Origin: an uncultured bacterium
GTDB taxonomy: Bacteria > Bacillota_I > Bacilli_A > RF39 > UBA660
Direction of reading: 5' to 3'
Assembly (NCBI GenBank): GCA_946560065.1
Contig: CAMNUE010000011.1
Location: forward strand, 1-64,000
DNA length: 64,000 nt
The position numbers and the translations under genes were made by a program. The notes beneath the pieces were generated by a model, which had not been told where the DNA came from, made no database searches, and worked only from the letters and a program-made list of their open reading frames with translations. Positions 10,199-57,260 of this stretch are shown here, piece by piece (the first letter of the stretch is position 1; each line of letters starts with the position of its first letter).

Positions 10199-11329
10199 AT
10201 GTATAAAGCTTATAAGTTTCGATTATATCCAAATGATACTCAAAAGATGTTAATACATAAGATTTTTGGTTGCTATAGATTTGTTTATAATTATTTTCTT
10301 GATAAATGCAGATCATATGGATATATTAAAGCATTTGATATGTGTAATGAACTAAAAGAAATGTATGCAGATTATCCATGATTAAAAGAAGTAGATAGTT
10401 GTAGTTTGAGATGTGCTATCTTTAATCTTGAAGATGCATATAAAAATTTCTTTGCTAAAAGAGCAAGTTTACCAACCTTTAAAAGTAAATATAGAAGACA
10501 ATCCTATAGAACAAATTGTATTAAGAGTACTTATAAAGGTAGAGAATATAGTAATATACAAATCGATTTAATTAATAATAAAATTAAATTACCAAAGCTT
10601 GGTTTAGTTGATATTAGAGGATATAGGAACTTAGAAGTAATTAATGGTAACATTGTAAACGCAACAGTTATTAAAGAAACAACTGGTAAATACTATGTAA
10701 GTGTTGTAGTGGAAGAAATAGAGATACTAGAAAAGAAGGTTATCCCCACTAATATTGTAGGAATAGATTTAGGAATAAAAGACTTAGTAATAACATCTGA
10801 TGGAGAAAAATATTCTAATCCAAAAGAAATAACTAAACATGAGAAAAGATTAAAAAGAATTCAAAGAAAATTATCTAGACAAATAAAAGGAAGCAAGAAC
10901 TACTTAAAAACTAAAGAGAAGATTTCTAAAATTCATATTAAGATTAAAAATAGTCGCAAACATAATATAATAAAAATCGTAAATAAATTAGCTAGTGAAC
11001 ACGATATCATAGTTTCTGAAAAATTAAATGTAAAAGGTATGATTAAAAATCATAATCTTGCAAAAATGGTAACTGATGCTTCATTTAGTAAGATATGTGA
11101 ATTATTGAAATGGAAGACTAGGATAAAAGGAAAATATTACTATCAAGTAGATACCTATTATCCGAGTAGTAAAACATGTAGTAGATGTAGTGAGAAAACA
11201 GAAATAACAAATAATTTAAATATTAGAAACTGGGTATGTGAGAAATGCAAAGAAGAACACGATAGAGATATAAACGCGAGTATAAATATAATGTTTGAAG
11301 GATTAAGATTACATTATGGAATGAACTAA
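10199..11329 (+). pseudogene. tnpB: TnpB (IS200/IS605-type RNA-guided nuclease) with one in-frame UGA
   Basis: A 376-codon tnpB interrupted only by UGA at 10379-10381 (codon 61). N-terminal YKFRLYPNDTQKMLIHKIFG matches the TnpB start. The break reads MYADYP-UGA-LKEVDS, where TnpB relatives have Trp (YPWLKEVDS), so TGG to TGA explains it. Beyond it the RuvC residues are all present: GIDLGIKD, VSEKLNVKGM, and HDRDINASIN, plus the zinc finger CSRC/CEKC. The protein would be functional if the UGA were read through. No tnpA lies alongside. The strong promoter and GGGGG ribosome site are intact. A TTG at 10406 could restart translation but would remove the N-terminal region. Confidence 0.85.
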
Positions 11330-18170: not shown

Positions 18171-18186
18171 GTAATTGGTGATTGCA

Positions 18187-19395
18187 ATGGATTTAAAAGA
18201 AAAACTAAGTATTTTAGCTGATAGTGCTAAATATGATGCTTCGTGTTCTTCGAGTGGAAGTAGCAGAAGAAAAGGAAATTTAGGTAATACTGCTATAGCA
18301 GGGATTTGTCATTCATTTGCTGCTGATGGAAGATGTATCTCACTTTTAAAAATTTTACTTACTAATTGTTGTATTTATGATTGCAAATATTGTCCAAATA
18401 GAAAGAGTAATAATATCAAAAGAGCAGTCTTTACCAAAGAAGAAATATGTACAATAACTATTAACTTTTATCGTAGAAACTATATTGAAGGATTATTTCT
18501 ATCATCTGGTATTATTAAGGATCCTGACTATACTATGAATTTAATGATTGAGACAATTAGTCTATTGCGTAATAGATTTCATTTTGGCGGTTATATTCAT
18601 GCTAAAGCAATACCTGGAGCGAGTGAATATCTTTTGAAAAAATTGGGTAGTCTAGTGGATAGATTAAGTGCTAATGTTGAACTTCCAACAGAATCAGGTT
18701 TGAAATTACTTGCACCAAATAAAGATGGGAGTAAAGTAGATAAGATCATGTCTTATGTCAATAGAAATAAAAGTAAGAAGTTTGTACCAGCAGGACAGAG
18801 TACTCAGATGATTATAGGAGCAACAAAGGAAACAGACCTTGATATAATGAACAAAAGCTCCAGTATGTACCAAACACATAACTTGAGAAGAGTTTTTTAT
18901 TCAGCGTATATTCCAGTAAATCAAGATAAGATGTTACCATCTCTAAAGACTCCACCATTGGTAAGAGAAAATCGCCTCTATCAAGCCGATTGGCTTCTAA
19001 GATATTACAACTTCAAAGTTGAAGACATTCTCGATAAAGAAAACCCTAATTTCAATCTCTTATTAGATCCTAAAGCCAACTGGGCTTTAAAGCACTTAGA
19101 AGAGTTTCCAAAAGAGATAAATACTTGCTCTTACAATGATTTATTAAAAATTCCTGGAATAGGAGTAGCATCAGCCAAAAGAATAATTGCCTCTAGATGC
19201 TACTTTAAAATAGATTTCAAAGACCTAAAAAAGATGGGAATTGTTTTAAAAAGAGCAAAGTATTTTATCACCTGCAACAACAAGTACTTTTCTGATTTCA
19301 GTTTCTTTAAAAAAAATATTATCGAGAAAAATTTAGTACTAGAAGATAAAATACCAATAACCACAAAAGTAGAGCAACTATCTCTTTTTCAATGA
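18187..19395 (+). CDS. Putative DNA modification/repair radical-SAM protein (TIGR03916-like)
   Basis: A 402-residue radical-SAM enzyme of the SplB-related putative DNA modification/repair family. The cluster motif is C62-IYD-C66-KY-C69. The N-terminal YDASCSSSGSSRR and GICHSFAADGRCISLLKILL are family signatures. The C-terminal LLKIPGIGVASAKRIIA (about residue 320-336) is a helix-hairpin-helix that would contact DNA. The start is ATG 18187, with GGTGA 5 bases upstream, not the TTG at 18175. The stop overlaps the next start (ATGA), the usual pairing with DUF4130. The LexA box supports a DNA-damage role. The exact lesion is unknown. Confidence 0.9.
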   Translation: MDLKEKLSILADSAKYDASCSSSGSSRRKGNLGNTAIAGICHSFAADGRCISLLKILLTNCCIYDCKYCPNRKSNNIKRAVFTKEEICTITINFYRRNYIEGLFLSSGIIKDPDYTMNLMIETISLLRNRFHFGGYIHAKAIPGASEYLLKKLGSLVDRLSANVELPTESGLKLLAPNKDGSKVDKIMSYVNRNKSKKFVPAGQSTQMIIGATKETDLDIMNKSSSMYQTHNLRRVFYSAYIPVNQDKMLPSLKTPPLVRENRLYQADWLLRYYNFKVEDILDKENPNFNLLLDPKANWALKHLEEFPKEINTCSYNDLLKIPGIGVASAKRIIASRCYFKIDFKDLKKMGIVLKRAKYFITCNNKYFSDFSFFKKNIIEKNLVLEDKIPITTKVEQLSLFQ

Positions 19396-20159
19396 AGAAA
19401 AGTAACTACATTTATCTCTACAACAAAGATTTCATTTCTCTTTTAAACTTAATAAAATATCTTTTAACTGACAAAATCTTACCAAACAATATTAAAGATA
19501 TTTCATATCAGCCTAATCTTTTTGAAGAGACACTAAATCTAGAAATTAAGCAAGATGATAAAGTTGTTCAAGAAATTATTTCAGCAACTAGTCTTAATAT
19601 TTTTAACACTATCTATAATATCTTTCTTTCAAATGAAAAAAATAAAGAAATATTAATTTTCTATTTTCTAATACACAGTTTGAAACATAAAAATAAAATT
19701 TTTTATATGCGTAACATTAGAAGTGTCCAAGAAGCCTTAAGAGTTTCTAAATATGTAGGACATGAAACTCATAAAATGAAAGGTTTTCTTCGATTTAGGG
19801 AACTAAAAGGGAAAGTATTGTACGCTGAAATGGCTCCAGAGAACAATATTTTATTCTTTGTTTCAAAACATTTTAAAAATCGCTTAAGAAATGAACTTTG
19901 GATAATTGAAGATACGAAAAGAGGTTTAATAAGCATCTACAACAAGAAAAAATTTACAATTGTTTCTTCTAAAGATTTTGTACTATTGGAAAAAGAACTT
20001 AGTGAAACAGAAGAAAATATCGAAGAATTGTGGAATGATTTTTATAAAACTATTGCTATCAAAGAAAGAACTAATAGTCGATGTCGTATGAACTTTATGC
20101 CAAAAAAATATTGGAAATATATAATAGAAATGAGGGATGAAATTGAAAAAAGTAATTAG
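19392..20159 (+). CDS. DUF4130 / TIGR03915-like DNA metabolism partner protein
   Basis: A 255-residue protein of the DUF4130 family, found next to the radical-SAM repair enzyme in many bacteria. Recognisable are VSKYVGHETHKMKGFLRFRE, LYAEMAPENNILFFVSKHF, WIIEDTKRGLISIYN and the C-terminal CRMNFMPKKYWKYIIEM. In some bacteria the domain is fused to a UDG-like domain, consistent with base repair. Translation is coupled to the upstream gene by a 4-base overlap and it overlaps the chaperonin gene downstream. Confidence 0.9.
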   Translation: MKKSNYIYLYNKDFISLLNLIKYLLTDKILPNNIKDISYQPNLFEETLNLEIKQDDKVVQEIISATSLNIFNTIYNIFLSNEKNKEILIFYFLIHSLKHKNKIFYMRNIRSVQEALRVSKYVGHETHKMKGFLRFRELKGKVLYAEMAPENNILFFVSKHFKNRLRNELWIIEDTKRGLISIYNKKKFTIVSSKDFVLLEKELSETEENIEELWNDFYKTIAIKERTNSRCRMNFMPKKYWKYIIEMRDEIEKSN

Positions 20160-21696
20160 TGGTCAGGAACTACAGGAAAAAATGAAAGATGCAGTAAATT
20201 TACTGTGTGATACTGTAAAAACAACATTAGGTCCAAAAGGAAATAATATCATTATTGATCATTCTGCATTTTCCCCATTCATAACTAATGATGGAGTAAC
20301 AATTGCTGAAAATATTGAAAGTGATGACCCAATAATAAATACCATACTAGAATTAGCAAAAGAAGCAGCAATTAATACCAATAATTTGGTAGGAGATGGA
20401 ACAACCACAACTTTAGTATTACTCCAGCAAATATACAATATTGGTAAGGAAGAAATAGAAAGTGGTAAAAGCCCTATAATAATAAAAAAAGAATTAGAAC
20501 AAGATTCAGAGATTATAATTTCAAAAATAAAAAATATTAGCAAAATACCATCAAGAAAAGATTTAGTAAATATTGCAACAACATCCGCAAACTCTGAAGA
20601 AATAGGAAAACTAGTGAGTGAAGCTTTTTTTAAAGTCAAATCAAAGGGTGCTATTAGAATTACAGAAAACAATAAAGCAGAAACAGAAATTATTTATAAA
20701 AAAGGTTATTATATTGAAACAATATTATCATCACCATATTTTTTGTTAAATAACTCAACGATAGAGCTAGATAACTCTAAAGTTTTATTATTTAATTCAT
20801 ACTTAGAAAGCATTGAAGAACTATCAATTTTTATAAACTACACTCTAAGAGAAAATAAACCATTAATAGTTTTAGCAGAGGATTATAGTGAATCACTTAT
20901 CAACAATATTTTAGCAATTAATAGTAATCAAAAAACTAAAATATATCTTCTTAAAATCCCAGAATATGGAATAAATAAAATAGAACTTTTACAAGATATA
21001 GAATTAATCACTGCAGGCAAGATAATTACAAATTCAAATGATTTAACATTAGATGTTCTAGGAGAGTCGGACAACATTAAAATTTCAGAAAAAGAAACAC
21101 GAATCTGTTTTACACCCTCGCATAAGATAGATGAAAAAATAAGTCAACTAAAACGGATAATTAACCAAGAGAACATGCTATTGTCGGAAAGTTTTGTAAG
21201 AAAAAGAATTTCAATGTTTGAAAATGGACTTGTTGACATTCTAGTAGGAGCACAAACAGCTACAGAACGGCGTGAAAAGAAAATGCGTTTCGATGATAGC
21301 CTCTGTGCCCTAACTACCTCATCAAAAGGAGTTGTTGTTGGAAGTGGAGTAGTGTTCTATAAAATACTAGATATCCTAGAGTCATCAAAACTATCATCTA
21401 ATATTCTTCAAGAAGCAATAAAAAAGCCATTTAAGCAAATTATGGATAATTCTGGTTTAGACAGCCAAAACATACTTGCAGAAATAAAAAATAAAGATTA
21501 TAAAGAAGTTTACAACGTGATAACTAGCACCTATGAAAATTGGAGTCAAACATCAATAATTGATCCAACAGAAGTAATCATTTCTTCATTAAAAAATGCA
21601 ACATCCATTGCTAGTATGCTTTTAACAACAACATCTTTGATAATCAATGAGTATCAAAATAATTCCCACAAAATAAATGATTTTACTGATTTATAA
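20143..21696 (+). CDS. Divergent GroEL-like (HSP60) chaperonin
   Basis: A 517-residue group I chaperonin homolog. Equatorial motifs are kept: KTTLGPKGNNIII, ITNDGVTIAENIE, NLVGDGTTTTLVLL (the GDGTTT ATP site with its Asp), and FDDSLCAL, which holds the Asp for ATP hydrolysis. The apical region (about 185-370) is highly divergent, the GGGVAL segment is VGSGVVF, and the Gly-Gly-Met tail is absent. No groES is adjacent. I prefer the TTG at 20143, which is 7 bases after GAGGG; the ATG at 20137 is the alternative. The gene overlaps DUF4130, so it belongs to the SOS-controlled operon. Confidence 0.85.
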   Translation: MKKVISGQELQEKMKDAVNLLCDTVKTTLGPKGNNIIIDHSAFSPFITNDGVTIAENIESDDPIINTILELAKEAAINTNNLVGDGTTTTLVLLQQIYNIGKEEIESGKSPIIIKKELEQDSEIIISKIKNISKIPSRKDLVNIATTSANSEEIGKLVSEAFFKVKSKGAIRITENNKAETEIIYKKGYYIETILSSPYFLLNNSTIELDNSKVLLFNSYLESIEELSIFINYTLRENKPLIVLAEDYSESLINNILAINSNQKTKIYLLKIPEYGINKIELLQDIELITAGKIITNSNDLTLDVLGESDNIKISEKETRICFTPSHKIDEKISQLKRIINQENMLLSESFVRKRISMFENGLVDILVGAQTATERREKKMRFDDSLCALTTSSKGVVVGSGVVFYKILDILESSKLSSNILQEAIKKPFKQIMDNSGLDSQNILAEIKNKDYKEVYNVITSTYENWSQTSIIDPTEVIISSLKNATSIASMLLTTTSLIINEYQNNSHKINDFTDL

Positions 21697-31229: not shown

Positions 31230-31263
31230 AAAAACTGCTGTAGAATAAACTACAACAGTTTTT
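31230..31263 (-). terminator. Terminator of the LCP gene (- strand)
   Basis: Fourteen-base stem (31230-31243 with 31250-31263, one G-U), loop of six, with T6 after it on the - strand. It overlaps the LCP stop codon. Confidence 0.8.
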
Positions 31264-33214
31264 ACTCATCAGGTTCCTTACTTTCACCTTTATCTTCTCC
31301 AGTAGAACTACCATCACCACCAGGAGGATTAGGCGAAGGACTAGGAGTAGGCGAAGGAGTAGGATTTTTATCACTATCCTTATCTTGATTTGAATCATCA
31401 CTATCATCAGTCTTATCGCTTTGGTTAGGATTATTCTTATCATCAACTTCATCTTTTATAACTTTATCATTATTTTCATTTAATACTTCATTCTGAATGT
31501 TATTGTAATTACTATTTTGAACATTACTAGGTCTATAGGTTGGAACAGATGAATATGTTTTACCTATATCTTTAGATGGAACAGAATGAGTATCTTTAAC
31601 ATTCGCAAGTTCTGAAGCATCTTGTTCAATATCAGGCCTACCACCATCTAAAACAGTTTTTATCTGAACTTTAGCATCTTCAATTGTTTTATTATCAGGA
31701 ATCATAACATATAAAGGTTGACTACCACCAGAATAAGTAGGTCGATTAGCATCACTTCCATCTAATGAAATTGAACTTATTTCAAATTTACCATTATTAT
31801 TTAATACATATTTAGCAATTTCTTGAATACTTTCATTTGAAATGTTTGTCAAGAACGTTCCCTCTAAAGATTTCAAAATTTTATTATACTTTAACAATAC
31901 TGATGGAGTAGAAGCTTTATTAATTACCGCTCTTAAGAATCTAGATTGGTTAATTCCTCTTTGTCTATCACCTTCAGCAAAATTCTTTCTTGCACGAACA
32001 AATTGCAATGCCATTTTTCCATCCGTTATATGATTGTAACCTTTACTAAAAGTATAACTATTTCCAATAGTTTGATCATAAACAGAAGTAGTAAAATCAT
32101 AATCACTATAAACATCAAGTGGTAACAAATATTCTACAGCCTTCATAAATGTTGTAAAGTTAAACTTAACATAATAATCAACTGAAACATCTAGCAAATC
32201 ACCTAAGCTACTCATTGCTTCTTCACTACCATATAAAGAAATATGCGTTAACTTATCATAAGCACCTTTACTAGATATATTAATATAATAATCTCTAGGT
32301 ATTGATAAAAGTAATATCTGTTTTGACTTCAAATTAACAATCATCAATAGATTAACATCACTTCTAGAAGTCTCACTAACAGAATCGGCATATGAGTCTT
32401 GACCGCTTACATATATTGCAAAACTTCCTTTTTCAAGGTCAATCTTCTTAGACTTCTTTGAATTATCAACTTTAATTTTAAAATTATAAATAGTTTTACT
32501 TTTAACATCAAAATCTTCAATGTTATCTAACATATTTTTTTCATCTTCCGAAACAAGATGATTACTACTATTATTATCTTGAATATCCGCAATACTTTCT
32601 TCTTCAGAAACATCATCAATTTCTAAATAAGAATCCATAATCATTAATGCATCAATCTCTTTAACTAATAACGCATTCTTTAATTCATTAATTGAAGAAT
32701 ATCCGATATATTCAACATCTACTTTTTTATTTAACTCTTTCTGAGCAGATTCATTATATTTATCATCTACATAATAACCAATTATTTTATCATCAATATC
32801 ATTAATTTTCTTATAATTAGAACTTTTTAATGCTAAAACCGAATAATTAATATATGAATTATTTTTAAACATATTATTCATCGATGAATAAACTTGTAAC
32901 AAAACTATACTAATAATTAAATAAGCAATTGACAACAGAACCGATAAAATACTAAGTGCAATCTTAGTTTTCTTACCTTTCCTTTTATACAAGAAAAACA
33001 AAACTAAGAAATCCACTACGCAAATAGAAAGTATTATAGGTATTAGAAATTTAACACCTAAAACTCCGATCTTTATAACTGTAAATATCAATAATATACT
33101 AAACAGTATTTGAATAAAACTTACATAAAATAATGGCTTTTTTAATAATGCTTTTAAATCTATCTTAAACTTTTTTTTATTTATATTATCATTTTTATCA
33201 TTTTTTTTCTTCAA
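31262..33214 (-). CDS. LytR-CpsA-Psr (LCP) family protein, large
   Basis: A 650-residue LCP enzyme, which transfers undecaprenyl-linked glycopolymers (teichoic acid, capsule) to peptidoglycan outside the cell. The core holds NLLMIVNLKSKQILLLSIPR (Asp/Arg phosphate site), DVYSDYDFTTS and KMALQFVRARKNFAEGDRQR. Unusual features are three or four N-terminal membrane helices (about residues 25-130) and a separate globular domain before the core. The C-terminal tail is acidic, Pro/Ser-rich and low complexity (PTPSPTPSPSPNPPGG). TTG at 33214, eight bases after AAGGAG, is the best start; the ATG at 33232 lacks a site. Confidence 0.85.
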   Translation of the reverse strand: MKKKNDKNDNINKKKFKIDLKALLKKPLFYVSFIQILFSILLIFTVIKIGVLGVKFLIPIILSICVVDFLVLFFLYKRKGKKTKIALSILSVLLSIAYLIISIVLLQVYSSMNNMFKNNSYINYSVLALKSSNYKKINDIDDKIIGYYVDDKYNESAQKELNKKVDVEYIGYSSINELKNALLVKEIDALMIMDSYLEIDDVSEEESIADIQDNNSSNHLVSEDEKNMLDNIEDFDVKSKTIYNFKIKVDNSKKSKKIDLEKGSFAIYVSGQDSYADSVSETSRSDVNLLMIVNLKSKQILLLSIPRDYYINISSKGAYDKLTHISLYGSEEAMSSLGDLLDVSVDYYVKFNFTTFMKAVEYLLPLDVYSDYDFTTSVYDQTIGNSYTFSKGYNHITDGKMALQFVRARKNFAEGDRQRGINQSRFLRAVINKASTPSVLLKYNKILKSLEGTFLTNISNESIQEIAKYVLNNNGKFEISSISLDGSDANRPTYSGGSQPLYVMIPDNKTIEDAKVQIKTVLDGGRPDIEQDASELANVKDTHSVPSKDIGKTYSSVPTYRPSNVQNSNYNNIQNEVLNENNDKVIKDEVDDKNNPNQSDKTDDSDDSNQDKDSDKNPTPSPTPSPSPNPPGGDGSSTGEDKGESKEPDE

Positions 33215-33353
33215 AATTTCAACTCCTTGCATTTAATAATTATATAATAATTTTCTATCATAAAAAAGTATTTTTTTAAATTTATCATTTTCTTTTACAT
33301 TAAAATGTTGTATCATAGGAATAGTTAATTGACATATAAAAAGAGGTGTAATT

Positions 33354-37345: not shown

Positions 37346-39001
37346 ATGGGGAAAAATGTAAAAAGAGCAATTGCTGGACTTATACTAGTCGCTGCACTTT
37401 ATATTTGTGAAATTAGAGGAAGAAAAGTAGAAGAGTTGCATTTGATCATGCTTTTTGAATGTTTCTGTACCATTCATATGTCATTATTCGCATTACTTCC
37501 AATTTCTAAATTACTCGCAAAAGAAGGGGAACATAAAAAACTATTTTGGACTCTATTTTATATAAGAGTAATAATTCTTTTGTTAGGTAACAGTGTTAAT
37601 GCCTGGGTCACATTCATCGTCGATTTTATTTTAATTTTTGTTGGTGCATTTGCAGTTGTACCAGTACTCGCACTGATAAAAAAGAAGGATCCATTTACAG
37701 GAATAGCAAAAGAAAATATTGAATCAAGTCAATCAACAAGTGCCGCAGCAGTTACAGCCTCAAGTCAGCCTTTAGTAAATAAGATTTATAAATGTAGTAA
37801 ATGCGAAAAAGAAGTGGCTCTAGGTAATAAGTATTGTCCAAACTGTGGTACTGCCCTAACTGAGAATGACTATGTAGTAAAAGATTCAACTATTACCACT
37901 ACTGACGCCAGAGAAGGAACTCCATTCAACAAAGCAGAATATGATAATTATCTTTTTGGCGACATAAAGAAAGCAGCAGGATGTATCATCAAAGAAAATA
38001 TTGCAAAAAATCCTGAAAATGTTCATGCAACACTACCAATAATTGAAAAAAAGAAAAATACTATAACAATCGTTTTTTCAATCGCAATCACAATATTATT
38101 GATAATTTACTTTGCTTATCATATAAATTGGTTAATTATAGCTAGTTTTATAGGAATAATTATATATTTCCTTGTAATGAAAAATTACTCAATCGAAAAA
38201 CATCTTGTAAAAGAAGTAATAAGTAGACCATCAGAAAAAATCGACTATGTTATTAGTAGTACCTTATCTGGTAAAGTAGTTGATAATAGAAGAAATAAAC
38301 TACTAAGAACAGGAATTATCGTTCTTACAATTTCTCTTCAATTACTTTTATTTAATAAACCGCATCTAATTTACGAAAAAACAGATGGAGGTTATGCAGT
38401 TAGATATTATACAATTGGAATTTTAAAAAAAGATAGAGAGTTAAAAATTCCCAAAGAATACAATGGTGAACCAGTGGTAAGTATAAGAGGAAGTGTTTTC
38501 GCAAGAATTGGCTCTATAGAAAAAGTAACTCTTCCTAACACAATAAAAGAAATAAGAGGAGAAGCATTTATAGGATGCTATAACTTAGAATCAATAAATA
38601 TTCCAGATGGAGTTACAGAAATAAAAGGAAGTACTTTTGAAGGATGTTCAAGTTTAAAAAGCATAGATATTCCTAAAGGAGTAACAAGAATAGGTGGTTC
38701 AGCATTTAGAGAATGTACATCATTAGAAAAGGTAACAATTCCTAAAACTGTCATAGAAATTGGAAGTTCGGCATTTAGAGGAACTGCTATAAATAACGTT
38801 TGTGTCTCAATAAATGCCTCCATCAATGAAAGAGCCTTTAAAGATACAAACGCAAACATTGCATACCATGAATATGGTTGTGTTAATACAAATGGAAGTG
38901 GATATGGATATGGGTACGGTAATGAATATGAAAGCAATTATGGATTCGAGAATGAATACAATAACAACGAATACGGATATGATTACGACTATGAAAGATA
39001 A
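37346..39001 (+). CDS. Multi-pass membrane protein with zinc ribbon, BspA-type LRRs and Gly/Tyr/Asn tail
   Basis: A 551-residue mosaic. About four membrane helices lie in residues 5-110. A zinc ribbon follows (CSKCEKEVALGNKYCPNCG, near 150-168). Two or three more helices lie at about 235-335. BspA/LRR_5 repeats (about 370-500) repeat the pattern VTLPNTIKEI-GEAFIGC. The last 40 residues are low complexity: GSGYGYGYGNEYESNYG onward, rich in Tyr, Gly, Asn and Glu. The LRR part is likely on the outside. The tail immediately precedes a radical-SAM gene whose start overlaps this stop, so the tail is a candidate substrate. Family of the whole protein unknown. Confidence 0.8.
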   Translation: MGKNVKRAIAGLILVAALYICEIRGRKVEELHLIMLFECFCTIHMSLFALLPISKLLAKEGEHKKLFWTLFYIRVIILLLGNSVNAWVTFIVDFILIFVGAFAVVPVLALIKKKDPFTGIAKENIESSQSTSAAAVTASSQPLVNKIYKCSKCEKEVALGNKYCPNCGTALTENDYVVKDSTITTTDAREGTPFNKAEYDNYLFGDIKKAAGCIIKENIAKNPENVHATLPIIEKKKNTITIVFSIAITILLIIYFAYHINWLIIASFIGIIIYFLVMKNYSIEKHLVKEVISRPSEKIDYVISSTLSGKVVDNRRNKLLRTGIIVLTISLQLLLFNKPHLIYEKTDGGYAVRYYTIGILKKDRELKIPKEYNGEPVVSIRGSVFARIGSIEKVTLPNTIKEIRGEAFIGCYNLESINIPDGVTEIKGSTFEGCSSLKSIDIPKGVTRIGGSAFRECTSLEKVTIPKTVIEIGSSAFRGTAINNVCVSINASINERAFKDTNANIAYHEYGCVNTNGSGYGYGYGNEYESNYGFENEYNNNEYGYDYDYER

Positions 39002-40736
39002 CTATAAATTTATCCATTTATTATATGTTCCAACAATGGCATGTAATATGCAATGTAAATATTGTTATTTAGAAGATAATACTAAAGATGAATGGAATAA
39101 ATATAAAGCCCTGGAAACTTTAGTATACGCAATAAATAAATTAAAAAAGAGTAATGTTATTCCATTTAATATTTCTCTTCATGGAGGAGAAGTAACCACA
39201 TTATCAACAAAAGATTTTCATGATTTAATAAAATATATCAGTAGTTACTACAAAGATAATAAGCAATTAATTGAAGAAAACGGTTTTAGAGTAGGAACAC
39301 CCCATATAAAAACAAATCTATATAATCTTGAAAAACATCTTGATACCATTAAAGAATATAATGTCTCAATAAGTGGTAGTCTCGATTTGCCACTTAGTAT
39401 CCACGATAAATATCGTCTGACTAAAAATAATCAAAAAACTTTAGATAGAATTTTAGAAAATATAAAATTATTAGAAGATATTCCAAATAAAAAGAAAGTC
39501 TCAACTACTATATTTAAAGAACATTTTGATTTGGATAAAATAGTCGAAGATATCAAATATTTAGATAAAAATACTTGTCTAGATATGAATGATTTTAACT
39601 TTATGATTGGCTTTGATTATAACTCGAATGGACTCCTTCATCATATTACTGAAGAAGAACAAGTAGAGCTATTTAAAAGAATGCATGAAGAGTTCGATGG
39701 TACAAATTTAGATAGTGGAGTAAATGGAGCTTGGTTCAACGAATTTGGACCAGAATACTGCACCAACTGTGATAACTGCGGAGAAAAATTCTTTCTTTTA
39801 GAGAAGAATGGTGATATTTACTCATGTGTTCGCGGTCAAAAGAATAAAGACTTCTATTATGGAAACATCTATCAAGATAAAGTAGAAACTATCTTAAATA
39901 ACGCTAAAAATAAAATCTTTATTGCTCACAATCGTCAACCATTTAATCAAGAATGTGCAGAATGTAGATATCTCTATTTATGTAAAACTGGTTGTCCTTT
40001 TGTAAAAAATGCATATAAAAGTAACAAATCATATACTTGTCTTCTTCAACAAGAACTTTATAAAAATAGAAACTATCAAGAAGATGAGTATAATGATGAA
40101 AGTGTCTATAACTACATTAGTAAAATGCATCCAGATAGAATGAAAGAATATTATCCAGTAAGACCAAATAATGAATACAAATCTTTAGAAGAATTAATTA
40201 ATGAAGATCAAAAATTAAAATATATATATGATTCCAATTCATTTATTTTAGAAGTAGATGGAAAAGAATACAATTTAGAATCACAAATACTAAAAAAGAC
40301 CAGACAAATTATCTATTTAACAGAAAAATCTAAAATAAAAATATATCTAAAAAATAGTCTTTTAAATGAAGTTTGCGATTATCCAGATAACAATTCTTTA
40401 TACATTATGCTTTTAACAGGAGATTTAATAAAATATGGTGATGAGCAAAGAACAAAACAAGCTCATATAATGACACATCAAGTCTATAAAGGAGTATTAG
40501 AAAAGAATAATAGTTCCAAAGAAGGATTTTATGAATATGACTTAACAAGTGTTTTAAAAGAATACTATAGTTATATTTCTAAAGATAAACCTAATAACTT
40601 ATTCTTTACTACTAATGCTTTAAGAGATTATCATTATACAAAACAAAAAAATAATGCTTATTATCATATTGATGCAATCAATTTGCCATTTCAAAATATT
40701 GAATTTTATTATTTAGGAGGACTAAACAATGATTAA
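38991..40736 (+). CDS. Radical-SAM/SPASM enzyme, candidate peptide maturase
   Basis: A 581-residue enzyme. The cluster motif is C18-NMQ-C22-KY-C25 (ACNMQCKYCYLE); ISLHGGEVTTL replaces GGEP. Auxiliary clusters are indicated by CTNCDNCG, GDIYSC, CAECRYLYLCKTGC and a later C, the SPASM pattern of peptide and protein modifiers. The last 200 residues are an unrecognised C-terminal domain, possibly for substrate recognition. The gene overlaps both neighbours (11 bases upstream, 8 downstream), so it is tightly tied to two proteins with low-complexity tails. The ATG at 38991 lacks a strong site; coupling is likely, and ATG 38979 is an alternative start. Target and reaction unknown. Confidence 0.85.
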   Translation: MKDNYKFIHLLYVPTMACNMQCKYCYLEDNTKDEWNKYKALETLVYAINKLKKSNVIPFNISLHGGEVTTLSTKDFHDLIKYISSYYKDNKQLIEENGFRVGTPHIKTNLYNLEKHLDTIKEYNVSISGSLDLPLSIHDKYRLTKNNQKTLDRILENIKLLEDIPNKKKVSTTIFKEHFDLDKIVEDIKYLDKNTCLDMNDFNFMIGFDYNSNGLLHHITEEEQVELFKRMHEEFDGTNLDSGVNGAWFNEFGPEYCTNCDNCGEKFFLLEKNGDIYSCVRGQKNKDFYYGNIYQDKVETILNNAKNKIFIAHNRQPFNQECAECRYLYLCKTGCPFVKNAYKSNKSYTCLLQQELYKNRNYQEDEYNDESVYNYISKMHPDRMKEYYPVRPNNEYKSLEELINEDQKLKYIYDSNSFILEVDGKEYNLESQILKKTRQIIYLTEKSKIKIYLKNSLLNEVCDYPDNNSLYIMLLTGDLIKYGDEQRTKQAHIMTHQVYKGVLEKNNSSKEGFYEYDLTSVLKEYYSYISKDKPNNLFFTTNALRDYHYTKQKNNAYYHIDAINLPFQNIEFYYLGGLNND

Positions 40737-41094
40737 GAAAAAACCAGAGACCTATGAAGAATTAGTTTTAGTTAGTAATGTTTTAAAATTAAATAACTTT
40801 TATGATTTATCCCAAGAATTTATTGATGAAGCCTATGATTATTTAGTAGCCAATCCTGAAGGAAGAATAGATGCAACACAAACACAAATTGTTTTTAAAA
40901 ATAGCACCACAGGAAAAATTGATAAAATTTTTACTGTTGCCTTAAAATTTGTTAATTCAATTGATGGGATATCTTTAACTAAATCAAATATTGAGATAAT
41001 ACCACATTATGATCCAACCTCAAGTGGAGGAGGATATGGTGGTTCATCTTCTAATAACAATAACAACAATAATAACAATAACAACAATCATTAG
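40729..41094 (+). CDS. Small protein with GGGYGG-Ser-Asn12-His tail, candidate modification substrate
   Basis: A 121-residue protein. Residues 1-90 form an ordinary-looking domain (YEELVLVSNVLKLNNFYDLS, IVFKNSTTGKIDKIFTVALK). The end is SSGGGYGGSSS followed by twelve Asn and a terminal His. This resembles a leader-plus-core arrangement of ribosomally made, modified peptides and echoes the GYGYGYG tail of the gene before the radical-SAM gene. The Asn run is encoded by mixed AAC/AAT codons, so it is under protein-level selection or expansion of a longer unit, not a pure triplet repeat. Overlaps the radical-SAM stop. Confidence 0.75.
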   Translation: MIKKKPETYEELVLVSNVLKLNNFYDLSQEFIDEAYDYLVANPEGRIDATQTQIVFKNSTTGKIDKIFTVALKFVNSIDGISLTKSNIEIIPHYDPTSSGGGYGGSSSNNNNNNNNNNNNH

Positions 41095-54099: not shown

Positions 54100-54996
54100 A
54101 TGAAAGAATATTATATTGATTTAGGATCATCTACAATAAAAGTATATGAATACGAAGAAAAATTAAAGTTAATTGAAGAACATTCGATATACTTTAAAAA
54201 TGATTTTGATTCTATGAAAGGAATCAGCAAAACAAATTTAGAAGAGTTGTGTTCTTATTTTGAAACACTTACAAAGAAATACAATTTTAAATATGAAAAC
54301 ACTCATATCTATGTAACAGGAATTTTTAGAAATTTATGTTATCAAAAGAAACAAGAAATGGTCAAACTATTTAATGACAAATTTGACTTATACTTCAATA
54401 TTATTAGTCATGGAATTGAAAATTATTATTTGGGTAAAGCAATGGCTAATGATTACAATAATAAAAAAGTATTAATTATTAATATGGGTGGAAAGACTAC
54501 CGAGTTAGTTACTTTTGAAGGAGATAAGATTACTGATACTAAGAATTTAGTAATTGGAGTTGCTGATTTACTTAACAACTTCTCTAAAGTCAATGAGCCA
54601 AAGAGTGGTAATACAATTGAAGAGATGGATAAATTTGTAGAAGAAAAAATAGCCGATTTAGAACTAGCTAATGACTACGATTGTGCAATCTTTACTGGTG
54701 GAGAAGAGAGATTCGAATTACTAACAGATTTCAATTTAGTAGAAAATACTTTGTTTGACGACGGAATTCATAAATATATGCTTAGTTTAGAAGATTATAT
54801 TTCAGGAACAGAAAAAGTATTTTATGATTTCACATTAGAAGATTTATATAAATTAATGCCAGAAAATCCAAAATGGATGGATGGAGCTAGAGCAGGAGCA
54901 ATCATCCCATTAACATTATTTAAGAAGGCAAATGTTAAATGGATAATTCCATCAGATTTAAATTTAATCAATGGAGTTATTAACGATTCAAAATAA
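54100..54996 (+). CDS. Ppx/GppA-like ASKHA protein
   Basis: A 298-residue protein of the Ppx/GppA exopolyphosphatase class in the actin-like ASKHA fold. DLGSSTIKVYEYE forms phosphate-1, VTGIFRNL the segment with the catalytic Glu position (here Gly-Ile-Phe-Arg), INMGGKTTELVTF phosphate-2 and IFTGGEERF the adenosine motif. It is shorter than Ppx (about 500 residues), resembling the N-terminal two domains alone. It may hydrolyse polyphosphate or (p)ppGpp, or be a divergent relative; the family is fairly clear, the substrate is not. Confidence 0.75.
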   Translation: MKEYYIDLGSSTIKVYEYEEKLKLIEEHSIYFKNDFDSMKGISKTNLEELCSYFETLTKKYNFKYENTHIYVTGIFRNLCYQKKQEMVKLFNDKFDLYFNIISHGIENYYLGKAMANDYNNKKVLIINMGGKTTELVTFEGDKITDTKNLVIGVADLLNNFSKVNEPKSGNTIEEMDKFVEEKIADLELANDYDCAIFTGGEERFELLTDFNLVENTLFDDGIHKYMLSLEDYISGTEKVFYDFTLEDLYKLMPENPKWMDGARAGAIIPLTLFKKANVKWIIPSDLNLINGVINDSK

Positions 54997-55009: not shown

Positions 55010-55037
55010 AAATCACAATTCAGTGATTTTTCTTTTT
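55010..55037 (+). terminator. Intrinsic terminator
   Basis: AAATCAC (55010-55016) with GTGATTT (55023-55029), loop AATTCA, then TTCTTTTTT. Confidence 0.75.
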
Positions 55038-55078
55038 TAGAAAAAACTATATAAAAACAATTTATTTAAAAACAACTC

Positions 55079-55107
55079 TTGAATTATTTGAAATGATAAT
55101 ATATGAT
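55079..55107 (+). promoter_or_regulatory. Promoter of the DUF6338-PurA-like module
   Basis: TTGAAT at 55079-55084, 17-base spacer, TATGAT at 55102-55107, 23 bases before the first start. Confidence 0.55.
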
Positions 55108-55130
55108 AATAAAAATCAATGGAGGTTTTT

Positions 55131-55787
55131 ATGGAAATAAGTGAGTTATTAATAAGAATTTTGATTTTATTGTTACCAGGAATATTGGGAACATTTATCA
55201 TAGAATCATTAGTAAGCAAAAGAAAATTTAGCAACAGAGACTATTTGGTCTCAGTGATTTTAATTAGTTTTTCATCTTATGCTGGATTATTCTTGTTTAA
55301 AAATATTTTAAACTTATTAAGAGAAGGAATAAATCACATGAATGTAGAAAAAGTTGTATTTTTCCAAGCTCTAGTAGACAGTAATACGAGTATAAATTTT
55401 TACGAAGTAGCAGAAACATGTTTCATTTCAATAATAATCAGCTTAATAGTAACAATTTTAATAAACAAAGGATTGTATTATGGATTATTTAGAAAAGTGA
55501 ATATAACGAGAAAAACCGGTAATGATCCTTGGAATGACTTATTCGAAAATAATACAAAAGGTATAAAGTCATATGTATATATAGTCTATCCAGTTGAAGA
55601 TAGAGTGTATGGAGGATGGGTAAATGCTTACTCTCAAGATTCTGAGAATCCAGAATTATTATTGTCAAACGTAATAGTAACAGAAAACAAGGATAGAGGA
55701 AATGTATTATATAATATGGACAAATTATATCTAAAATTGGATAAAGATATAATAATAGAAATAGTTGATAAGGAGGAAAGTGACTAA
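55131..55787 (+). CDS. DUF6338-like membrane protein
   Basis: A 218-residue protein with three membrane segments (about 7-25, 40-60 and 100-120) and a C-terminal soluble domain: NDPWNDLFENNTKGIKSYVY, VYGGWVNAYSQDSENPEL and LYLKLDKDIIIEI. The W-D-x-F, R-V/Y-G-G-W pattern fits the DUF6338 family, small membrane proteins of unknown function. AATGGAGG is 5 bases upstream of the ATG at 55131. It is the first of four genes spaced closely (2 bases to overlap), so the module is one transcript. Confidence 0.7.
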   Translation: MEISELLIRILILLLPGILGTFIIESLVSKRKFSNRDYLVSVILISFSSYAGLFLFKNILNLLREGINHMNVEKVVFFQALVDSNTSINFYEVAETCFISIIISLIVTILINKGLYYGLFRKVNITRKTGNDPWNDLFENNTKGIKSYVYIVYPVEDRVYGGWVNAYSQDSENPELLLSNVIVTENKDRGNVLYNMDKLYLKLDKDIIIEIVDKEESD

Positions 55788-55789
55788 AA

Positions 55790-55969
55790 ATGGAAAATAA
55801 ATTTCACCAAAATAATAAGAAAAGTACCAAAGTAATGCCTAGCTTTAAAAATTATAATCTTAATAAAAATGTTCCAAATGATAAGAAAACACCAAAGCCA
55901 CCAGGAGCAAATAGCCATAAAATTTCAAACAAAGGAGTAGAAGAAAATGTACAAAAAAATAATGAATAG
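55790..55969 (+). CDS. Tiny basic protein with PKPPG motif, first of two
   Basis: A 59-residue ORF with AAGGAGG 13-19 bases before the ATG, overlapping the preceding stop by no more than 3 bases. It is polar, Asn/Lys-rich, with DKKTPKPPGANSHKISNKG in the middle. The same TPKPPG(A/G) string recurs in the next ORF, which is strong evidence that both are translated. No membrane segment. Not in any family I recognise. Position between a membrane protein and a nucleotide-enzyme paralog suggests a substrate, activator or structural peptide. Confidence 0.65.
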   Translation: MENKFHQNNKKSTKVMPSFKNYNLNKNVPNDKKTPKPPGANSHKISNKGVEENVQKNNE

Positions 55970-56078
55970 AATTGATTCGAATATAATAACTGAAAATGCA
56001 AATCCAAATAAAAAACCACAAAAACCAACTCCCAAACCACCAGGTGGTGAATCGAAAAATAACAATACGGGAGAATAG
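55947..56078 (+). CDS. Tiny basic protein with PKPPGG motif, second of two
   Basis: A 43-residue ORF overlapping the first by 23 bases in another frame, with GGAG about 10 bases before the ATG. It ends NPNKKPQKPTPKPPGGESKN and NNTGE. The shared TPKPPG motif makes it a relative of the upstream protein. The PurA-like gene starts 2 bases after its stop. Function unknown. Confidence 0.65.
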   Translation: MYKKIMNRIDSNIITENANPNKKPQKPTPKPPGGESKNNNTGE

Positions 56079-56080
56079 AA

Positions 56081-57232
56081 ATGAAAAGAAACGTCTACGC
56101 AATAATCGATGGTCAAGCAGGTAGTTGTGGTAAAGGAAAGGTAATAGGGCAGTATGCTCTTGAAAATAATATTGATGCTGCTATAACAAATTGTATGCCT
56201 AACGCAGGACATACATTTGTATCTAATGGCAAAAAAAGAGTTTTTTGTAATATACCAGTCTCATCAGTAAATGAGAATACTGAACTTTTTATTGGACCAG
56301 GATCAGTTATAGATATGAATTCTTTGGAAAGAGAATATGAAGAAAATAAAGATATCTTAGAAGGAAGAGAGATAATCGTTCATCCACTAGTACCATTAAT
56401 CAAAGAAGAACATATATTAAGAGAAAAACAAGAAATAAAAACAGGCTCTACTTTTAAAGGGTGTTGTGCCTGTCAAACAGAAAAAATGATGCGAGGTCCT
56501 GAAAATATTTTCTTTAAAGAATATAAAAATATTAAAGCAACAGATAACTATTACAAAAGACTACAGTACCATTTAAAAAATTCAGATTATATCTTACTAG
56601 AAGGAGCACAAGGATGTGATTTGGATATGAATCATAGTCGTCATTATCCTAATACAACCTCTCGGCAAGTAAGTGTTGCTCAAATGTTAGCCGATTCAGG
56701 AATATCCCCATTATACTTCAAAGATGCAATTATGGTAATTAGACCGTTTCCAATCAGAATTAGTAATGAAATCTATGATGGAAGCAAAATATATAGTGGT
56801 GATTATGGTGAAAAAAACTCCGAACTAACATGGAATCAAATTAATATAGGCTCATATTTAGGACAATATCCCAGTGTTATAACAGAAGAAGATGTTGAAG
56901 AATATCAGGACTTAGCAGATGATTTGACAGAACACACAACAGTTACTAAAAAAATTAGAAGAATATTTGACATCGATATAGAACTACTAAAAAGAAATAT
57001 CGAAATAAATACACCAGCAGAGATTTATCTAAACTTCTTTGAGCAATTAGATTCTAGTTATAGGAATCTTCATGGAGTATACACTGGTAGTGATGGAATC
57101 TATATAGATAAATATCGTCGTGAATACTTATCTTGGTTAGAAGAAGAGTTAGGGGTTTCAATTACTATGCTAGGAACAGGGCCAGATTTAAATCATTATA
57201 TAGACAGAAGACAATATGTAAAAAAAAGATGA
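56081..57232 (+). CDS. Adenylosuccinate-synthetase paralog, PurZ-like
   Basis: A 383-residue relative of PurA, which joins Asp to IMP using GTP. The P-loop is DGQAGSCGKGK rather than WGDEGKGK, so the catalytic Asp is Ser, as in PurZ. NAGHTF (His) is kept, as are LEGAQGCDLDMNH, YPNTTSRQVSVAQML, the Arg loop TTVTKKIRRIFDID and GTGPDLNHY. The guanine-recognition T-K-L-D is NFFEQLD, so GTP specificity is lost. It is shorter than PurA (about 430) and similar to PurZ. It probably makes an Asp adduct of another nucleotide. No phage genes are near. It ends the DUF6338 module. Confidence 0.8.
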   Translation: MKRNVYAIIDGQAGSCGKGKVIGQYALENNIDAAITNCMPNAGHTFVSNGKKRVFCNIPVSSVNENTELFIGPGSVIDMNSLEREYEENKDILEGREIIVHPLVPLIKEEHILREKQEIKTGSTFKGCCACQTEKMMRGPENIFFKEYKNIKATDNYYKRLQYHLKNSDYILLEGAQGCDLDMNHSRHYPNTTSRQVSVAQMLADSGISPLYFKDAIMVIRPFPIRISNEIYDGSKIYSGDYGEKNSELTWNQINIGSYLGQYPSVITEEDVEEYQDLADDLTEHTTVTKKIRRIFDIDIELLKRNIEINTPAEIYLNFFEQLDSSYRNLHGVYTGSDGIYIDKYRREYLSWLEEELGVSITMLGTGPDLNHYIDRRQYVKKR

Positions 57233-57238
57233 CACTAT

Positions 57239-57260
57239 AACAGACATTAGTCTGTTTTTA
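57239..57260 (+). terminator. Intrinsic terminator
   Basis: AACAGAC (57239-57245) with GTCTGTT (57250-57256), loop ATTA, then TTT. Confidence 0.8.

Follow-up and report, generated by a model that had tools for sequence, protein, structure and literature searches.

The locus at positions 55,131 to 57,232 of the window (the whole 64,000-nucleotide stretch of DNA analysed) is probably a junction between two units that evolve independently, one a cassette encoding a DUF6338 membrane protein plus its mini-proteins, the other a unit built around a PurZ-like enzyme. The cassette separates a Ppx/GppA-like gene from the PurZ-group gene, and in relatives these two genes adjoin one another with only 14–24 nt between them. 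Insertion of the cassette at this point seems to have given rise to the present arrangement.

All four open reading frames of the locus were confirmed, each on the forward strand. The first (55131..55787) encodes the DUF6338 protein of 218 residues, which scores 29.9 bits against PF19865, above the Pfam gathering cut-off of 26.5. Two in-frame ATG codons, at 55119 and 55131, could start this protein and the Shine-Dalgarno sequence belongs to that at 55131. Next come mini-protein 1 (55790..55969; 59 residues containing KKTPKPPG, basic and free of cysteine) and mini-protein 2 (55947..56078; 43 residues containing KPTPKPPGGESK), the start of which overlaps the end of mini-protein 1. Both have proline-rich tails and good Shine-Dalgarno sites. 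The fourth gene (56081..57232) encodes a bacterial PurZ-group enzyme of 383 residues with Ser15 at the position of the PurA catalytic aspartate. It scores 189 bits against phrog_1211 and 198.5 bits against the NCBIfam PurZ model (NF038379), and because the latter score is below the curated cut-off of 300 bits we call the protein PurZ-like or PurZ-group rather than PurZ. Upstream of the cassette is the Ppx/GppA-like gene (54100..54996, forward strand; 298 residues, ASKHA fold), which gives 30.8 bits with PF02541 and 48 bits with TIGR03706, the cut-off of which is 307.

A terminator-like, U-tailed hairpin follows the Ppx-like gene (55014..55042, forward strand; fold z-score −3.5, unflagged by the consensus scan). 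The consensus scan gave a promoter-like TTGAAT-17-TATGAT sequence 5' of the DUF6338 gene (55079..55107, forward strand) and a terminator-like hairpin 3' of the PurZ-like gene (57239..57256, forward strand; −10.5 kcal/mol). These three elements make a single four-gene transcript running from 55079 to 57256 plausible. The preliminary description had depicted a tight gene set with one promoter and one terminator. The genes and their spacing are as it reported, whereas promoter-like sites occur across the region in the number expected by chance.

Other parts of the window gave observations of their own. A 640-residue radical-SAM/SPASM-like open reading frame followed by a 121-residue protein ending in GGGYGGSSSNNNNNNNNNNNNH (38814-41094, forward strand) resembles a RiPP-type peptide-modification pair. 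The genes for a radical-SAM helix-hairpin-helix protein (18175-19395) and for the small partner of that protein (19392-20159) are directly followed by that for a GroEL-like paralogue of 519 residues (20137-21696, forward strand). A TnpB-like transposon protein having zinc-finger CxxC motifs is encoded at 10406-11329 (forward strand).

The case for two units rests on co-occurrence. We fetched 80 bacterial PurZ-like loci from genomes of gut Bacilli and Clostridia. A profile search that recovered five of five known DUF6338 loci as positive controls found no DUF6338 gene within about 6 kb of any of these 80 other PurZ-like loci. When whole genomes were considered, one of 40 PurZ-like genomes carried DUF6338, on a separate contig, a frequency not clearly above the background of about 1%. 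DUF6338 is rare in the phylum and family of the window, with 2 of 392 genomes scoring over the cut-off and 3 of 386. Conversely, an adjacent PurZ gene was absent from 10 of the 11 DUF6338 loci. The four genes had been proposed to form one integrated module that makes or uses an unusual nucleotide or nucleotide-peptide signal. Their tight spacing and plausible common transcript fit that proposal, as does the fact that the single DUF6338-positive genome (G825) is the home of the closest PurZ relative (L098). Moreover, the cassette and the PurZ-like gene of the window may share a transcript and might thus be linked functionally at this locus. However, the counts given above are those of genes that travel separately, both locus by locus and genome by genome. 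We consider a single module very unlikely; the accessory system of four genes failed the co-occurrence check, and the suggested nucleotide-peptide adduct found no support.

In contrast to its lack of association with PurZ, DUF6338 has a constant neighbor. The two other DUF6338 genes found in the family of the window, which belong to two other genera, lack PurZ, and in each case the end of DUF6338 is overlapped by a proline-rich mini-protein that comes next. A fixed criterion was applied, namely an open reading frame of 38–95 residues that starts between −50 and +20 nt from the DUF6338 stop codon and has at least four prolines among its last 32 residues. Ten of ten DUF6338 genes have such a partner, versus none of 360 further genes in the window genome and three of 79 genes of two GC-rich plasmids. 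Note that these ten loci had already been seen when the criterion was drawn up and that only the eleventh (L153), a DUF6338 gene found later and below the Pfam cut-off, was a blind case; it obeyed the rule. The overall tally is 11 of 11 DUF6338 genes versus 3 of 439 control genes (Fisher p ~1e-19), and the 11 genes span the Bacilli, Alphaproteobacteria, and Gammaproteobacteria. On the plasmids of Methylobacterium, Agrobacterium, Acidiphilium, Vibrio, Pantoea, Citrobacter, and Oceanimonas the mini-protein open reading frame starts from −47 to +8 nt of the DUF6338 stop codon, and in three of these (Acidiphilium, Pantoea, and Citrobacter) it is annotated as a hypothetical protein.

The mini-proteins of the 11 loci are 40–91 residues long and start no more than about 50 nt from the DUF6338 stop codon. 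They lack cysteine, are poor in hydrophobic residues and are mostly basic (one is acidic, with a pI of 4.9), and they often end in a PP-x-K-type tail. Across lineages their sequences barely align; those of the Alphaproteobacteria share an EGYxxKGG core. Searches of Pfam, PHROG, NCBIfam, and PADLOC gave no family match for either mini-protein of the window. The description of the mini-proteins as unexplained was fair, but their pairing with the PurZ-like enzyme was not, for they belong to DUF6338. A precedent comes from Pseudomonas stutzeri ATCC 14405, in which a DUF6338 operon encodes three proline-rich small proteins (SEPs) of <50 residues that were detected directly by mass spectrometry (PMC10433244). 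Those proteins were considered to be confined to the species and evolution of new genes was suggested (PMC10433244). The P. stutzeri operon resembles the present loci in having DUF6338 followed by several short proline-rich proteins. The difference is that comparable mini-proteins are now seen in Bacilli, Alphaproteobacteria, and other Gammaproteobacteria. Short, variable, mostly unannotated sequences lacking family matches could be spurious open reading frames. This seems extremely improbable given the 11 of 11 versus 3 of 439 tally, the Shine-Dalgarno sites, the common proline tail, the alphaproteobacterial core, and the three analogues seen as proteins. As a separate observation, the C-terminal tail (PTPSPTPSPSPNPPGG) of a LytR-CpsA-Psr-like protein of the window (31262-33232, reverse strand) resembles the mini-protein tails.

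The structure model of DUF6338 has helices at residues 3-27, 35-65, and 90-112 followed by a five-stranded Sm/LSm-like barrel (~147-212), although the model, built from an alignment of three sequences, is of low overall quality (pLDDT 73, pTM 0.48). The defining elements of the Sm/LSm fold, an N-terminal helix plus a five-stranded barrel, are both present in the model. When residues 129-216 were compared with known structures all 50 of the 50 matches listed were Sm/LSm proteins, the best having a Z score of 9.3 and an rmsd of 2.7 over 77 aligned residues, whereas Foldseek alone gave a weak match (E 2.6e-3). The three helices are predicted to be transmembrane and the charge pattern suggests that the barrel is cytoplasmic. 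DUF6338 thus resembles Sm/LSm proteins (for example, SmAP, 5MKL, and the LSM14–4E-T peptide complex, 6F9W) in its predicted barrel and N-terminal helix, but differs from them in having three N-terminal transmembrane helices and a short proline-rich partner. In the MscS mechanosensitive channels a cytoplasmic Sm-like beta-domain comes after three transmembrane helices, a layout like that of DUF6338, although DUF6338 lacks the C-terminal alpha/beta domain. Kinship with MscS was rejected upon HHalign comparison with 12 MscS homologues, which gave probabilities of 0.6-1.5%.

The overlapping or adjoining start of the mini-protein gene and the constancy of the partner argue for a co-translated complex. 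In such a complex DUF6338 would be a membrane-anchored Sm/LSm-like protein, probably oligomeric (a ring), and its cytoplasmic barrel would bind the co-translated mini-protein through the P-x-P-P tail, the mini-protein acting as a regulatory or stabilizing subunit. The pair would be spread by mobile DNA as an accessory trait, most likely a protective one. Binding of PxxP peptides is not known to be a general property of Sm-like barrels, which counts against this reading. We hold only tentatively, at rather less than an even chance, that the cassette encodes a membrane-anchored, mini-protein-bound Sm/LSm-like protein carried on mobile DNA as an accessory trait.

The DUF6338 copies of other bacteria were reached through a weak link. 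A tblastn search of plasmids and phages with the window DUF6338 found nothing, and the proteobacterial set was opened by a match, at E = 5, between L115 and an annotated Methylobacterium DUF6338 protein. Scans of viral contigs found no DUF6338 relatives, and the search of E. coli genomes gave a 119-base match in two strains and nothing else. Many of the copies are on plasmids, beside an integron marker or in a conjugative-element region. Since these mobile settings are often beside defense-type genes, a protective role is the leading guess. An anti-phage function had been suggested for the locus; the neighbors of other DUF6338 copies lend this circumstantial support, whereas PADLOC had no model matching any of the four window proteins.

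A more specific proposal is that DUF6338 and its mini-protein form a toxin-antitoxin or abortive-infection device. The membrane protein would damage the cell once it was freed from the mini-protein or received a trigger through it. In addition to the mobile settings, several neighborhoods are of defense type. On a Citrobacter plasmid (L123 1338-2983) genes for a ThsB-like TIR protein, a caspase-family protein, and a small protein lie just 5' of DUF6338; the literature on TIR and caspase proteins, when searched, gave nothing specific to DUF6338. Multiubiquitin, ThiF, DUF6527, and UvrD genes are near the Agrobacterium copy, ADP-ribosyltransferase/RES genes are near the Pantoea copy, the Vibrio copy is in an integron-type cassette, and AAA ATPases and a HipA-like kinase are found among DUF6338 neighbors. 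However, the neighbors vary from locus to locus, such genes are abundant on plasmids in any case, and PADLOC gave no match. Moreover, P. stutzeri in normal growth expresses its mini-proteins well whereas DUF6338 is undetected (PMC10433244), which does not fit such a device. We regard the device as a candidate, albeit an unlikely one.

The second unit centers on an enzyme that is PurZ-like rather than PurA-like, as first described. The substitution of serine for the catalytic aspartate in GSCGKGK is invariant in 48 relatives and is also present in the phage PurZ sequences. Alignment likewise bore out the absence of the TKLD guanine motif and the retention of His44, Arg138, and the TTVT and RR elements. 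In the tree the window enzyme falls within a 40-row clade (support 100/99) that takes in phage PurZ together with an enzyme of a Bacillus phage, with PurA and PurZ0 outside. The 36 bacterial PurZ-like rows form their own clade (100/99), and the order among the phage 140 enzyme, PurZ, and the bacterial rows is poorly supported (80/14). Of the phage PurZ relatives, that of Bacillus phage vB_BpsS-140 (L144 7962-9083) is the most similar to the window enzyme (32%). One metagenome-assembled genome (BRZ_NS__bin73) contains two PurZ-like copies (L055 and L086) that represent the two branches of the clade and may be a contamination or a true pair.

Nearly all of the published dGMP, aspartate, and ATP contacts are retained. 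The S-2L PurZ residues that contact dGMP, aspartate, and the ATP phosphates (PMC8342488) include G22, S23, N49, A50, T132, R146, Q190, V241, and T273-T276, which correspond to G14, S15, N41, A42, T124, R138, Q177, I227, and T286-T289 of the window enzyme, the one change being isoleucine for V241. N305 and F306 of the ATP-base pocket are kept (N318 and F319), and S-2L Q308 corresponds to position 321, which is glutamate in the window enzyme and glutamine in >90% of the relatives. A PurZ-specific insertion precedes W251. The structure model is good (pLDDT 88) and fits archaeal PurA and phage PurZ to a similar degree. It shares the fold of the phage PurZ structures (phiVC8, 6FM1/6FKO; S-2L, 7ODX), with a TM score of ~0.76 by model length and 0.84 by target length, together with the serine, the TTVTK..RRVF loop, the insertion before E-x-T-W, and the dGMP and ATP-phosphate contacts. 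Unlike these proteins, which are ~31-34% identical to it, the window enzyme belongs to a bacterial chromosomal clade that lacks Z-cluster neighbors, has Ppx-like or Nudix partners and mostly lacks PurB. PurZ0 of Gordonia and Arthrobacter phages (7VF6) has the same fold and length class but falls outside the clade of PurZ and the bacterial enzymes. The short archaeal PurA (5K7X), the best Foldseek match, is also of this fold and length class, but has the PurA aspartate.

The recurrent neighbors of the PurZ-like genes resemble phosphohydrolases of two kinds. A Ppx/GppA-like gene lies 14–24 nt upstream at 28 of the 80 loci, and the Ppx-like gene just before the window cassette is its orthologue (76-81% identical to the others). 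A Nudix gene is present at 26 loci, adjacent in most and fused to the PurZ-like gene in seven. The fused Nudix domain is MTH1-like (E 3e-29) and the separate Nudix proteins are MutT-like. Ppx-like and Nudix genes were found together at none of the 80 loci and 26 loci have neither, some of these being on cut contigs. At the locus of a congener (L073) the partner's place is taken by a protein with HD, RelA/SpoT-type HD_4, and AAA domains. These partners recall MazZ (DUF550) of the Z-genome phages, which converts dGTP to dGMP and thereby feeds PurZ (PMC8342488), in that a nucleotide phosphohydrolase is encoded beside PurZ, but here the partner is a Nudix protein (MTH1-like or MutT-like) or is Ppx/GppA-like. 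The presence of varied purine or guanosine-phosphate hydrolases in one position would be in keeping with guanine monophosphate as the compound supplied to the enzyme. The partners (Ppx/GppA-like, the L073 HD_4 protein, and MutT-like Nudix) might all act on (p)ppGpp, an idea with which the data are compatible.

The remainder of the classical pathway is mostly missing. No PurB or Lyase_1 match was found in the window genome (G000) or in any of the 36 genomes of the genus, although 14 of 14 named controls were positive. PurB-like matches of >180 bits occur in four of the 40 PurZ-like genomes, exceeding the cut-off in two of them, and weak lyase matches occur in a further two, such that PurB is missing from 34-36 of the 40. 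PurA over the model cut-off is missing from 33. The window genome carries an ordinary full-length PurA (G000:C1:323619-324863, L001; 588 bits), although the searches of this genome and of its genus found no adenylosuccinate lyase. The scarcity of PurA and PurB in the carriers makes classical Z synthesis unlikely, and a succino-nucleotide, if made, would probably not be converted to 2-aminoadenylate by the known route. Note that the carriers have reduced genomes and thus the absence of PurA and PurB may be a trait of the lineage that is not linked to PurZ. A plasmid of Rhizobium leguminosarum (L114 4360-9242) encodes FolE, a PurA-like protein, PurB, QueE, QueC, and IMP dehydrogenase, an arrangement that resembles a deazapurine-nucleoside pathway.

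Two conventional roles for the enzyme were weighed. The gene could be a stray from a Z-genome phage or support bacterial 2-aminoadenine DNA, as its grouping with phage PurZ and its retained pocket might imply. We judge this highly unlikely, because a pattern scan of 2.9 million viral contigs found no member of the bacterial clade, the 36 tree rows form a well-supported clade of their own, the gene clusters of the PurZ-like loci contain no recurrent dATPase, MazZ, or polymerase neighbor, and PurB is missing from the host as well as from 34-36 of the 40 carriers. Replacement of PurA in ordinary AMP synthesis would explain why 33 carrier genomes lack a PurA over the cut-off. We give it scant credence, since the catalytic aspartate is serine throughout, a PurA is encoded elsewhere in the window genome, and lack of PurB means that no AMP would result. 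The reading that we favor, at somewhat short of an even chance, is that the enzyme is an ATP-dependent ligase of aspartate and a guanine (deoxy)nucleoside monophosphate. A partner phosphohydrolase, Nudix or Ppx/GppA-like, would supply the guanine (deoxy)nucleoside monophosphate and the ligase would link aspartate to its 6-position. Because PurB is mostly missing the succino-nucleotide would be the end product, which would remove or tag a guanine nucleotide with no step to 2-aminoadenine DNA.

Taken jointly, the two readings are doubtful, but would have the following consequences. DUF6338 and its obligatory proline-tailed mini-protein would constitute a mobile two-component system that crosses phyla and has not been described before, its membrane-tethered Sm-like ring being under the control of a disordered peptide translated together with it. 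Independently of this, a PurZ-type ligase of gut Bacilli and Clostridia lacking PurA and PurB would make a succino-guanine-type nucleotide end product that serves in sanitation, depletion, or as a signal. DUF6338, a widespread family of unknown function, gains a constant partner, one for the most part overlooked by annotation pipelines, and an orphan proteomics observation made in one Pseudomonas becomes a general and testable rule. PurZ, known so far mainly from Z-genome phages, is now seen in bacterial chromosomes with the rest of its pathway mostly missing, which raises the question of what purpose an aspartate-guanine-nucleotide ligase serves without PurA or PurB.
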